Shown here piece by piece: positions 34,396 to 38,684 of a DNA stretch of 64,000 bases. Position numbers and translations under genes: made by a program. Each line of letters opens with the position of its first letter. The first letter of the stretch is position 1. This stretch comes from Natronobacterium texcoconense. GTDB taxonomy: Archaea; Halobacteriota; Halobacteria; Halobacteriales; Natrialbaceae. The notes under the pieces are model-generated. The model was given only the letters and a program-made list of their open reading frames with translations. It did not search any database and had not been told where the DNA came from. The stretch is from the NCBI RefSeq assembly GCF_900104065.1, contig NZ_FNLC01000003.1, positions 124,001-188,000 on the forward strand, read 5' to 3'.

Positions 34396-37300
34396 ATGAG
34401 CAGACAGACAACGAGGACACAATCGAAATCGAGAGCAGTATTCGTTCGGAGTATAGCTATCGTATTCACGCTTCTTATGATCACGTCGCTCCCCGCGATG
34501 GCAGCCGTGGGAGCAAGCGGGGGTCAGGCGGAAGCGACGACGAGCGACGAGCAAGTCGACGCGTCGTTGGCCGACGTCGACGGAGAAACGAAAGAGATAG
34601 TCCTTCGCTTCGGAAGCGCTGACGGCCTCTCCTCGATGAGCGAAGATGAAGCCATCGCGGAGATGCAACGACACGCCGAGGTGACGCAAGCAGAGGCGAT
34701 CCAGCGAGCCGAGCAAACGGACGGAATCGAAGTCAAGAACGACTTCTGGATCGCGAACGCAGTTCTTCTCGAGGTCGACCCCGGCGAAGTCGATCTGAAG
34801 GCGTTCGTCGAGGGAACAGGTGCCGTAGACGTCCACGAGAACTTCGAGGTCGAACTAGTCGACGACACGAACGGTACCGAGACGACCAACTCGTCGGACG
34901 ATGAGTCCGTAACGAACGAGTCGACCGACGAAACGGCGAACGAATCGGCCGACGAACCCGTATCGAACGAATCAGCCGACGAAACCACGAACGAAACAGT
35001 CGACTCCTCGGACGACGAGTCCGTATCGAACGAGTCAACCAGCGAAACGGCGAACGAAACCGCTGACGTCGGTGACGAACCCGCTGACGCGGACGAAGCG
35101 GCGACTGTCACCGCCGAGAACGTGACCTACGGACTCGAGATGATAAACGCCACCGACGTCTGGGACGAACACGGTACCCAGGGGACCGGAGCCGGCGTTG
35201 CAGTCCTCGACACAGGAATCGAAGACGCTCATCCGGACCTCGAGATTGCTCCGGACAACTGGCAGGAGTTCGACGCGTCGGGTGATCCGGTCGAAACCGA
35301 ACCGAACGACGGGAACGGCCACGGAACCCACGTGAGCGGTACTGTCGTCGGACCGGACGACCCTGATGGCGACGTTCCTGCCTACGGTGTCGCCCCCGAA
35401 GCCGAACTCTATCACGGCAAAGTACTGGACGACGCCGGCGGCGGTTCGTTCGCTCAGATCGTCGCAGGGATGGAGTGGGCCGTCGACGACACCGACGCCG
35501 ACGTCGTGACGATGAGCCTCGGGTTCGACAACTACGAAAGCGAGATGCTCGAACCATCCGAGAACGCACGCGAGGCGGGCGTCGTCCTCGTGGCTTCGAT
35601 CGGCAACGACGGCCAGGGCGTCAGCGGCTCGCCCGGTAACGTGTACCCGAACTTCGCGAGCGGTGCCGTCGACGAAAACGCGGAGGTCGCGTCGTTCTCG
35701 AGCGGCGAAGTCGTCGAGACCGAGCACGCCTATCCCGACGCACCCGACTACTGGCCCGACGAGTACGTCGTGCCGAACGCAGGTGCGCCCGGCGTCAACG
35801 TACTGAGTGCAGTGCCTGACGGTGGCTACGACGACACCTACTCGGGAACGTCGATGTCCGCCCCACACAAGGCCGGGATGTTCGCACTGATGGTCTCGGC
35901 GTCCGACGGTGAGGCCGACCGAGAACAGCTGTACGAAATCGTGGAAGACACCGCCTGGCAGCCAGAGCACGCCGACGAGGACGTGAACACCGAGTACGGC
36001 CACGGAATCGTCGACGCCGCTGCCGCAACCGAGTTGGTTGTCCTCGACAGCGGCATCGATGGCACCGTTACCGACACCGACGGAACGGCAATCGAAGGTG
36101 CGACCGTCGAACTCGAAGACAGAACGACGAACACCGACGACACCGGCCAGTACAGTCACATCGCCGCACCAGGCGAGTACACCGTCACCGCCGATGCGTT
36201 CGGCTACGAGAGTGCGAGCGAAGGCGTGACGGTCGAAGAAAACGAGACGACGACTCAGGACTTCGAACTGAGTGACGCACTTGACGGAGAGGTCGCCGAG
36301 TACCAACCTGACGGTATCGAAGCCGGTGACGAACTCGAGACGACCGTCACCGTCGCGAACGCCGAAACGGTGACCGTCGACTTCGAGGGTGACTACGACG
36401 AATCGGACGCAACCCTCTACGTCGACGGCGAGCAAGCCGAGTTCGGCGAAGCGGTCGATCTCGACGGTCCCGTCTCCGACGACGTCACGATCAGCGTCGA
36501 GACGACCGAAGACACCGAGGGCGAACTCGAACTCGAGAACACGTTCGCCGGCATGGGCGACGAGATTACGGTTCGGACCGGCTCGACGACGGTCTTCGAG
36601 GAGTTCGTCCCGGTCGCCGTCGTCGACGACGACGGCTTCCACGGAGACGACGTCGTGAGCGCTCTGGACGAGGAACTCCCAGCGATGTACGATCCCGGTG
36701 TGACCACCTCCGGAGAAGCGATGGAGGACTACGAGGTAATCGTCGTACAGAGCATAGATGACACCGCTGCCGGTGATTTCATCGAAGAAACTGACGGAAG
36801 CGACACCGGCGTCGTCTACCTCGACCAGTGGGGTGCCGATAGCAACGGGATTCCCGTTCACTCCGACGTGATGGACGATCCGGAAGCAACGTTCCAGGAC
36901 GATTTCGTCGTACCGCCGATCACCTACGAACTGAACGCGGATCACGAAATCTTCGAGGGCGTCGGTGAGGCCGGTGACTCGGTCGATATCCACAACGCGG
37001 CTTTCGGCGACCACACCTGGTTCGAGGGAACCGACGCCGACGTGCTCGCTGAAACCGGCGTTCAGGGAGCTCCCGTCGGAGACGGCTTCGCCGTCGACGA
37101 CGAGAGCGCGACGGTGTACGCCTCGAGTCTGGGCTACACGACGTTCGTCGGAAGTGCTGACTACACGGAAAACGCCGACGCGATCCTCGGAAACTCGGTC
37201 GAGTACGTCGCTTCGACTGAGGAAACGGAGTCCGAAGAAGTGCTCACGTTCGGCGACGGCGAACACGTCGGTCCAACGAACGGCACGGTCGACGTCGAAC

Positions 37301-37797
37301 TCAACACGACTGCCGACGGCGTCGCTGGCTACGAGACGCAGGTCCACTTCGACGCAGACGTGCTTCAGGTCGAAGACGTCGAAGGCGTCGACATGGATGA
37401 TCCAATAACTTCCATCGACAACGATGAGGGGACGGTTTCGCTCGCGCAGGCACAGGCCAACGACGTGTCCGAGCCAACGTTCGCCGAAATCGAGTTCGCT
37501 ATCACTGCCGAGACCAACGGAACCGATTTGGTCTTCGACGAGGAGGAAACCTACCTCAACGACGCTCACGGCGACCTCGAGATCGAACTGGTCAACGGGA
37601 CAGTCGAGTCGGCCTGGCTGGGTGACGTCAACGCAGACGGCGACGTCAACACCTACGACGTCACGCTGACCCAGCAGTACCTCGCCGGCGAAGAACCGAC
37701 CGACACGTTCCACGAGGACCTCGCCGACATGAACGGCAACGGCGAAATCGGCCCCGGCGACGTCACGATGATGCTCGAGCAGATCGTCGAGGCCTAA
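34396..37797 (+). CDS. Secreted subtilase with C-terminal cohesin-like and dockerin domains
   Basis: This 1133-residue protein has a Sec signal (SIAIVFTLLMITSLPAMAAVG) and a propeptide. An acidic Asn-Glu-Ser-Thr linker follows (about 160-235, many N-x-S/T sequons). The S8 domain has Asp272 (VLDTGI), His309 (GHGTHVSG) and Ser486 (SGTSMSAPH). Next come a regulatory-like beta domain (about 552-625), an Ig-like segment and a Rossmann-like segment (VAVVDDDGFHGDD, about 735-945). A cohesin-like domain follows (about 948-1074). It ends in a dockerin with two calcium loops, DVNADGDVNTYD and DMNGNGEIGPGD. No membrane anchor is present. The next gene supplies an anchored cohesin. Confidence 0.92.
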   Translation: MSRQTTRTQSKSRAVFVRSIAIVFTLLMITSLPAMAAVGASGGQAEATTSDEQVDASLADVDGETKEIVLRFGSADGLSSMSEDEAIAEMQRHAEVTQAEAIQRAEQTDGIEVKNDFWIANAVLLEVDPGEVDLKAFVEGTGAVDVHENFEVELVDDTNGTETTNSSDDESVTNESTDETANESADEPVSNESADETTNETVDSSDDESVSNESTSETANETADVGDEPADADEAATVTAENVTYGLEMINATDVWDEHGTQGTGAGVAVLDTGIEDAHPDLEIAPDNWQEFDASGDPVETEPNDGNGHGTHVSGTVVGPDDPDGDVPAYGVAPEAELYHGKVLDDAGGGSFAQIVAGMEWAVDDTDADVVTMSLGFDNYESEMLEPSENAREAGVVLVASIGNDGQGVSGSPGNVYPNFASGAVDENAEVASFSSGEVVETEHAYPDAPDYWPDEYVVPNAGAPGVNVLSAVPDGGYDDTYSGTSMSAPHKAGMFALMVSASDGEADREQLYEIVEDTAWQPEHADEDVNTEYGHGIVDAAAATELVVLDSGIDGTVTDTDGTAIEGATVELEDRTTNTDDTGQYSHIAAPGEYTVTADAFGYESASEGVTVEENETTTQDFELSDALDGEVAEYQPDGIEAGDELETTVTVANAETVTVDFEGDYDESDATLYVDGEQAEFGEAVDLDGPVSDDVTISVETTEDTEGELELENTFAGMGDEITVRTGSTTVFEEFVPVAVVDDDGFHGDDVVSALDEELPAMYDPGVTTSGEAMEDYEVIVVQSIDDTAAGDFIEETDGSDTGVVYLDQWGADSNGIPVHSDVMDDPEATFQDDFVVPPITYELNADHEIFEGVGEAGDSVDIHNAAFGDHTWFEGTDADVLAETGVQGAPVGDGFAVDDESATVYASSLGYTTFVGSADYTENADAILGNSVEYVASTEETESEEVLTFGDGEHVGPTNGTVDVELNTTADGVAGYETQVHFDADVLQVEDVEGVDMDDPITSIDNDEGTVSLAQAQANDVSEPTFAEIEFAITAETNGTDLVFDEEETYLNDAHGDLEIELVNGTVESAWLGDVNADGDVNTYDVTLTQQYLAGEEPTDTFHEDLADMNGNGEIGPGDVTMMLEQIVEA

Positions 37798-37816
37798 CCG
37801 AGCTGTACAGCCGCTC

Positions 37817-37839: not shown

Positions 37840-37886
37840 CGACGACTGCGAACTGACTATTTCCGAACTTATAACATTCGAACATC

Positions 37887-38684
37887 ATGACAACGAAATC
37901 GAATCGAACCAGATTGCTCGTCATCGCTGCGATCATCGGTCTCGCAGTGGCGACGATGGCAGTAGGTGTACAGGCGGCCGGGGAGTTACCGACTACCACG
38001 GACGACGAGACGGTCACACTCGAGTTGCTAGACGAAGACGACGAGACCGTCACGCTCGCGGTGACTTCGAATAAAGCGGACGTCGCCGGCTTCCAGGCGA
38101 ACGTGAGCTACGCCTCAGACGACACTACAGTAAAGCACTTCGAATTCGGCGATATAGGTGGGTGGAGCAACAACAACACTAATCAGGATGGATACGTGTA
38201 CCTCACCGAATCGACGACCGGCGACAACAGCGTCGACGAACCGACGCTCGCGACGATCACGTTCGCCGTCGACGGCGACGCCGACTTCGATCTGGTCGAG
38301 GACGACACGTCGGTCTCCGACGGTGACGGACAACCGATCACGGGGAGTGACGATGGCGACGACGGTGGCGGCGGAGCAGCGCCGGGCGGTGGCGGTGTCG
38401 GCGGTGCCAGCGGTGACGACTCGAGTAGTGACGACGGCGAAGACGGAACCGACGACAGCGACGAGAACGACGACTCGGAAGCCAGTGACGACGAAGACGA
38501 GAGCGACGACGACTCGAGTGACACCGACAGCGACGATGAAACTGAGACCCAGACAGAAGAAACGACCACGAGTGAGGAATCGGACTCCGACGACGACGGC
38601 ATTCCAGGCTTCACCGTCGTCGGAGCGGTCGTAGCAGGGGTGATCGGGCTCCTCTGTCTCGTCACAGTGCGCCGCCATCGCTGA
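37887..38684 (+). CDS. PGF-CTERM-anchored cohesin-domain protein (putative scaffoldin)
   Basis: This 265-residue protein has a Sec signal (MTTKSNRTRLLVIAAIIGLA, cleaved near residue 31). A cohesin-like beta domain of about 110 residues follows (VTLAVTSNKADVAGFQANVSY and EPTLATITFAV). A glycine-rich then Asp/Ser/Glu-rich stalk comes next (about 150-235), and the PGF-CTERM tail GIPGFTVVGAVVAG ends in RRHR. The stalk and tail match lipid-anchored haloarchaeal surface proteins. Placed directly after a dockerin-bearing protease, it is probably the cell-surface receptor for it. Binding is inferred, not shown. Confidence 0.82.
   Translation: MTTKSNRTRLLVIAAIIGLAVATMAVGVQAAGELPTTTDDETVTLELLDEDDETVTLAVTSNKADVAGFQANVSYASDDTTVKHFEFGDIGGWSNNNTNQDGYVYLTESTTGDNSVDEPTLATITFAVDGDADFDLVEDDTSVSDGDGQPITGSDDGDDGGGGAAPGGGGVGGASGDDSSSDDGEDGTDDSDENDDSEASDDEDESDDDSSDTDSDDETETQTEETTTSEESDSDDDGIPGFTVVGAVVAGVIGLLCLVTVRRHR

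Follow-up and report, generated by a model that had tools for sequence, protein, structure and literature searches.

We analysed a 64,000-nucleotide stretch of the haloarchaeon Natronobacterium texcoconense (assembly GCF_900104065.1, contig NZ_FNLC01000003.1, positions 124,001 to 188,000 of the forward strand; hereafter the window). Two neighbouring genes on its forward strand, separated by 89 bp, encode a secreted S8 subtilase that ends in a cohesin and a dockerin (gene A) and a secreted cohesin protein with a C-terminal membrane-anchor signal (gene B) (Table 1). The pair recurs across haloarchaea, and in one genus of the window's family (here g12) the same chromosomal site holds clusters of dockerin-bearing subtilases and tandem-cohesin proteins. 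We propose that the dockerin of A probably binds the cohesin of B, placing the protease on the cell surface, and that relatives have expanded this pair into multi-protease scaffolds.

Table 1 Features of the subtilase–cohesin pair, in window coordinates
Feature	Position	Strand	Basis or remark
Gene A, S8 subtilase, secreted, 1133 residues	34396..37797	+	C-terminal cohesin and dockerin, without membrane anchor
Signal peptide of gene A (approximate)	34396..34503	+	Sequence reading; hydrophobic run, end AMA|AVG
Peptidase S8 catalytic domain, residues 263-537	35182..36006	+	Pfam Peptidase_S8, E 2.9e-38
CarboxypepD_reg-like domain of gene A, residues 554-625	36055..36270	+	Pfam, E 2.1e-16
Enzyme-borne type I cohesin of gene A, residues ~947-1073	37234..37614	+	Pfam, AlphaFold model, VIA
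Type I dockerin of gene A, residues ~1074-1131	37615..37788	+	PF00404, profile matches to solved dockerins, 6kg9 structure match
Dockerin calcium loop 1, DVNADGDVNTYD, residues 1077-1088	37624..37659	+	Sequence; alignment
Dockerin calcium loop 2, DMNGNGEIGPGD, residues 1111-1122	37726..37761	+	Sequence; alignment
Hairpin with T tract, gap between genes A and B	37817..37838	+	Sequence reading; possible terminator or attenuator
Gene B, membrane-anchored cohesin protein, 265 residues	37887..38684	+	Sequence; family profile comparison
Signal peptide of gene B (approximate)	37887..37976	+	Sequence reading
Anchor-borne divergent cohesin domain of gene B, residues ~40-150	38004..38336	+	Profile match, Pfam in orthologues, model fold
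Acidic D/S/E/T/G-rich stalk of gene B	38337..38597	+	Sequence reading
PGF-CTERM anchor signal of gene B	38598..38681	+	IPGF, hydrophobic segment and basic tail

The translation of gene A retains all three S8 catalytic motifs (Asp in VLDTG, His in GHGTH and Ser in GTSMSAPH). Its cohesin is detected by PF00963 in a whole-genome search (window 37285-37605, E 1.1e-7, above the cut-off), and its dockerin by Dockerin_1 (PF00404; residues 1075-1126, E 1.1e-8), the sole match to that family in the genome. Both 12-residue calcium loops, of the F-hand type, are present in the alignment to solved dockerins, and the dockerin profile matches these structures, including the double dockerin of a Clostridium thermocellum serine protease (8x39). 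The last 194 residues were modelled with AlphaFold2 from an eight-sequence alignment, giving a predicted local distance difference test (pLDDT) score of 85.5; bacterial loci were aligned with the window proteins solely to deepen the alignments used for structure prediction. Comparison of the model by VIA-align returned type I cohesins as the top matches to the cohesin (Z 17.5, root mean square deviation 1.9 Å over 127 residues), with Z 15.8 to the Archaeoglobus fulgidus cohesin 2xdh, and matched the dockerin to 6kg9 (Z 10.5 over 65 residues). Pfam and the predicted fold make the cohesin identity of this domain solid, and the type I match renders unlikely, for the cohesin of A, the possibility that it belongs to a single non-interacting β-sandwich family. 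No membrane-length hydrophobic stretch was found after residue 60, and Pfam detects no carbohydrate-binding module in gene A or gene B. About 300 residues (~635-938, window 36300-37210) separating the CarboxypepD_reg-like domain from the cohesin match no Pfam family.

The C terminus of gene B, IPGFTVVGAVVAGVIGLLCLVTVRRHR, has the PGF-CTERM pattern; a short PGF-CTERM profile model gave no reported match in gene B, and the PGF motif, hydrophobic segment and basic tail were read directly. Archaeosortase A (ArtA, TIGR04125) is present in the window's genome (E 4.5e-95). The window copy of gene B has no Pfam cohesin match, and its sequence alone gives chance-level matches to solved structures. The B-family profile, by contrast, aligns over the cohesin with the cohesin–dockerin profile of gene A (hhalign 99.8%, E 6e-28) and weakly matches solved cohesins (E 0.014), PF00963 is found in 9 of the 16 B-family members, and the top Foldseek matches of the predicted fold are cohesins (E 5.6e-5). 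On the basis of the profile match to gene A, the Pfam matches in orthologues and a fold model of moderate confidence, the domain is a divergent cohesin. A preliminary description of this DNA had proposed both proteins, a secreted subtilase with a C-terminal cohesin, a two-loop dockerin and no anchor, followed by a secreted cohesin-like protein with a PGF-CTERM anchor. Pfam, the calcium loops and the hydrophobicity scan agree with the former, and family profiles, orthologue Pfam matches, Foldseek and the tail sequence bear out the latter.

That description had also suggested looking for the same gene pair in other haloarchaea, where it proves to be conserved. Genomes of the window's family (125) and of its order (392) were searched for genes encoding S8–cohesin–dockerin proteins, and the surroundings of these genes were scanned with window-derived models. 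Such genes occur in 33 resolvable genomes, spanning five haloarchaeal families, and each of these genomes has at least one copy with a cohesin gene, encoding neither protease nor dockerin, immediately downstream on the same strand (the count leaves out G389, whose fragmented assembly could not be resolved). A named example is Halomicrococcus gelatinilyticus, whose record lists an 'S8 family serine peptidase' and then a 'cohesin domain-containing protein'; Halobiforma nitratireducens and Natrialba aegyptia were among the matches listed in a contig scan, most of which were dockerins of gut and rumen bacteria. The anchor is strictly partitioned: a C-terminal hydrophobic segment is carried by B in 32 of the 32 pairs checked and by A in none, the B anchors being either PGF-CTERM or plain transmembrane segments (weakest Kyte–Doolittle value 1.42, in L234).

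The pair in the window sits between genes for a TYW2/Trm5-type methyltransferase and an XPD-type helicase, which also flank it in congeneric genomes and in several more genera of the family. The same two genes border the 13-38 kb clusters of genus g12 and, in five pair-less genomes (two of them from g12), lie ~280-315 bp apart; where other genera and families carry the pair, it is located elsewhere. Because the g12 cluster shares its flanking genes with the pair of related genera, it occupies the pair's site in those genera, which fits growth in place.

Three g12 genomes carry such expansions, with five dockerin-subtilases in G015, eight in G082 and two in G081, some consisting of S8 and dockerin without a cohesin and others bearing one or two cohesins. 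One of the two copies in G081 lacks a downstream cohesin gene. Alongside the enzymes are scaffoldin-like proteins with a PGF-CTERM or similar anchor and up to 8 (G015), 14 (G082) and 4 (G081) cohesins; in G081 the fetched open reading frame with four cohesins shows no clear anchor at its end. Pfam independently counts 8 (E 3.2e-49) and 14 (E 1.4e-83) cohesins in the G015 and G082 proteins. The repeats within these scaffoldins share a mean identity of 72-79%, and all 31 scaffoldin cohesins group in a tree with anchor-borne rather than enzyme-borne cohesins, deep support in that tree being modest. None of the g12 scaffoldins examined has a carbohydrate-binding or cellulose-binding module. Far from the protease cluster, G082 also encodes a 2162-residue protein with PQQ-type β-propellers, PKD, CARDB, cohesin and dockerin domains (L245:762-7250).

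In the mechanism that we propose, archaeosortase A would process B after its export, and the lipidated C terminus would retain the protein in the membrane, with its cohesin displayed on the acidic stalk. A would be exported separately, and its type I dockerin, once loaded with calcium, would bind the B cohesin, so that an otherwise soluble subtilase stays on the producing cell. The purpose of such an arrangement would be protein degradation, with the peptides released by a surface-held protease captured locally. In relatives within the family, amplification of the anchor-borne cohesin would have produced scaffoldins with 4, 8 and 14 of these domains, and the subtilase would have given rise at that locus to several copies with dockerins, the outcome being a cell-bound multi-protease complex of cellulosome-like organisation.

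Several observations weigh against this reading. Mirror-tree comparison supports co-evolution, in that dockerin distances correlate with those of the B cohesins beyond the contribution of the catalytic domain (partial r 0.64, p 5e-4). An equal co-variation links the dockerin to the cohesin of A itself (partial r 0.68), and for this reason the approach cannot choose B over A's own cohesin. Outside g12, two copies of the subtilase gene are unpaired: the second copies in G013 and G309 lack a B of their own, although both genomes also hold a paired copy. Pfam detects no cohesin in some haloarchaea that have dockerin-subtilases, such as G005, so another role of the dockerin is possible there. The model of gene B reaches a pLDDT of 68.8 (moderate confidence), and its VIA score (Z ~9) ties with Ig-like adhesins; the fold alone is therefore insufficient to settle the identity of the domain, which the sequence profiles settle as a cohesin. 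Finally, co-transcription of A and B is uncertain, as the hairpin with a T tract in the intergenic gap makes separate transcription possible; a scan for bacterial-type promoters and terminators did not report this hairpin, such a scan being uninformative for an archaeon.

The equal co-variation bears on an alternative in which the main partner of the dockerin is the cohesin of the same polypeptide type, giving A-to-A chains or an intramolecular clamp, with B at most a terminal cap. The two domains are adjacent in A and show the strongest co-variation, and several g12 enzymes hold two internal cohesins ahead of the dockerin. The preliminary description had likewise raised chain formation, as the subtilase carries both partner types, and chains may form. 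As the main mode of binding we nevertheless consider this arrangement unlikely: the scaffoldin cohesins cluster with the B type and not the A type, other families pair cohesin-less metallophosphoesterase–dockerin proteins with anchored cohesins, and in G082 S8–dockerin enzymes without any cohesin adjoin the 14-cohesin scaffoldin, a juxtaposition that favours binding to anchored cohesins. Less probable again is that the dockerin is a mere calcium-dependent stabiliser or substrate-binding module, with no binding between A and B. Haloarchaeal glycanase dockerins have been described as participating in substrate binding (PMC10963439), and haloarchaeal dockerins exist without cohesins, both in G005 and in dockerin proteins of 1500-1800 residues; within the cohesin-bearing class, however, the gene for a cohesin plus anchor comes next in every one of the 33 genomes, and the expansions multiply cohesins and dockerins jointly. 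A role of B in regulating or protecting the protease (as a chaperone, inhibitor or S-layer shield) that uses the cohesin fold for something other than tethering would account for a neighbouring gene with an export signal, but seems very improbable given that B has no inhibitor-like domain, that conservation lies in its cohesin and its anchor, and that many cohesins on a single scaffold suit display and not inhibition.

The presence of one domain is a poor guide to partnership. A cohesin match occurs in 111 of the 125 family genomes and a dockerin in only 55, so a cohesin match says little by itself and, with dockerins lacking cohesins (G005) and cohesins lacking dockerins, neither domain alone proves an interaction. 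The generic cohesin proteins of most family genomes, some of which have no dockerin, were set aside as partners; the sole one compared, C6 of the window's genome, is ~20% identical to the cohesins of A and B.

Cellulosomes are the textbook example of scaffolded enzymes and are tied to anaerobic degraders of plant fibre. The system described here resembles the bacterial cellulosomes of C. thermocellum and others in its enzyme-borne type I dockerin and anchored cohesin, an arrangement found across the 32 pairs, and, in relatives, in its multi-cohesin scaffoldins. It differs in having proteases instead of glycanases and an archaeosortase-type anchor: gene A is an S8 protease and not a plant-polysaccharide-degrading enzyme. 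A non-catalytic multi-cohesin scaffoldin is absent from the window, where B has one cohesin per anchor, and present in G015 (8 cohesins) and G082 (14). An S8 protease with a double dockerin is known from C. thermocellum (dDoc_0689; PDB 8x39/8x3a; PMC12484212) and matches the dockerin of A in sequence; there the protease is a cellulosome accessory, whereas here it is the whole system and has a cohesin of its own. The multi-cohesin scaffoldin-like proteins and dockerin-subtilase clusters of relatives at the same locus lend support to the earlier suggestion of a protease-based relative of the cellulosome, of which they represent a stronger form. On balance, we lean towards viewing the window as a minimal archaeal counterpart of the cellulosome dedicated to proteases, which in one genus of the family grew within its locus to eight subtilases served by scaffoldins with as many as 14 cohesins.

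Among archaea, the non-cellulosomal AF2375/AF2376 pair of A. fulgidus (PDB 2xdh) is, to our knowledge, not a protease system. It shares with the pair in the window its archaeal origin and the encoding of dockerin and cohesin in consecutive open reading frames; what sets the pair in the window apart is its subtilase enzyme, its PGF-CTERM-anchored partner and the multi-cohesin scaffolds of its relatives. Strong and specific binding is reported between the A. fulgidus dockerin, from ORF2375, and the cohesin of the neighbouring ORF2376 (PMC9705933), a precedent for the mechanism proposed here. Archaea bearing cohesins and dockerins were previously thought to lack large scaffoldins, and a recent survey described scaffold-like proteins that have at most 5 cohesins in anaerobic methanotrophic (ANME) archaea (PMC9012536), in which dockerins are common on transporter-binding and S-layer proteins; the haloarchaeal system reaches 14 cohesins and has dedicated proteases. 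A haloarchaeal survey recorded a subtilisin with Dockerin_1 in Halobacterium (NP_280653.1; PMC2605481) and does not mention a cohesin, so the partner and its anchor went unrecognised there. Archaeal cohesin–dockerin pairs and single subtilase–dockerin genes are thus already known (PMC9705933, PMC2605481), and no report of a haloarchaeal or protease-dedicated cohesin–dockerin scaffold was found in the freely accessible literature searched. If our proposal is correct, 14-cohesin protease scaffoldins in haloarchaea would extend the cellulosome principle to a new substrate and lifestyle, and the pair together with its two-, five- and eight-enzyme relatives at one locus would offer a direct view of how a scaffold can grow from a single enzyme and a single anchor. 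Surface display would be a use for salt-stable cohesin–dockerin pairs.

Other cohesin and dockerin genes were encountered in the same genomes. The window's genome (G000) encodes two more cohesin-like proteins, at C6:87795-88160 and C3:485444-485590, that are unlinked to any dockerin. Two genomes (G066 and G112) each have ~15 dockerin matches and at most one Pfam cohesin. A 1700-residue subtilase at L249:5924-11026 has a dockerin right behind its catalytic domain and no cohesin nearby, and large dockerin proteins resembling it (1500-1800 residues, without a cohesin partner) occur in several genomes. At two loci (L237:6220-8363 and L243:5068-8088), a small cohesin gene comes after one for a protease-less cohesin–dockerin protein, with a β-helix in one case and carbohydrate-binding-like matches in the other. 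Other haloarchaeal families include three genomes (L244:6356-9288, L248:6386-9675 and L250:6617-9784) in which a gene for a metallophosphoesterase protein is directly followed by one for a cohesin protein, the dockerin of the former being recognised as Dockerin_1 by Pfam in two cases and by a weak match to a window-derived model in the third, and the cohesin protein ending in PGF-CTERM in two of the three; the two-gene docking module therefore extends beyond proteases.

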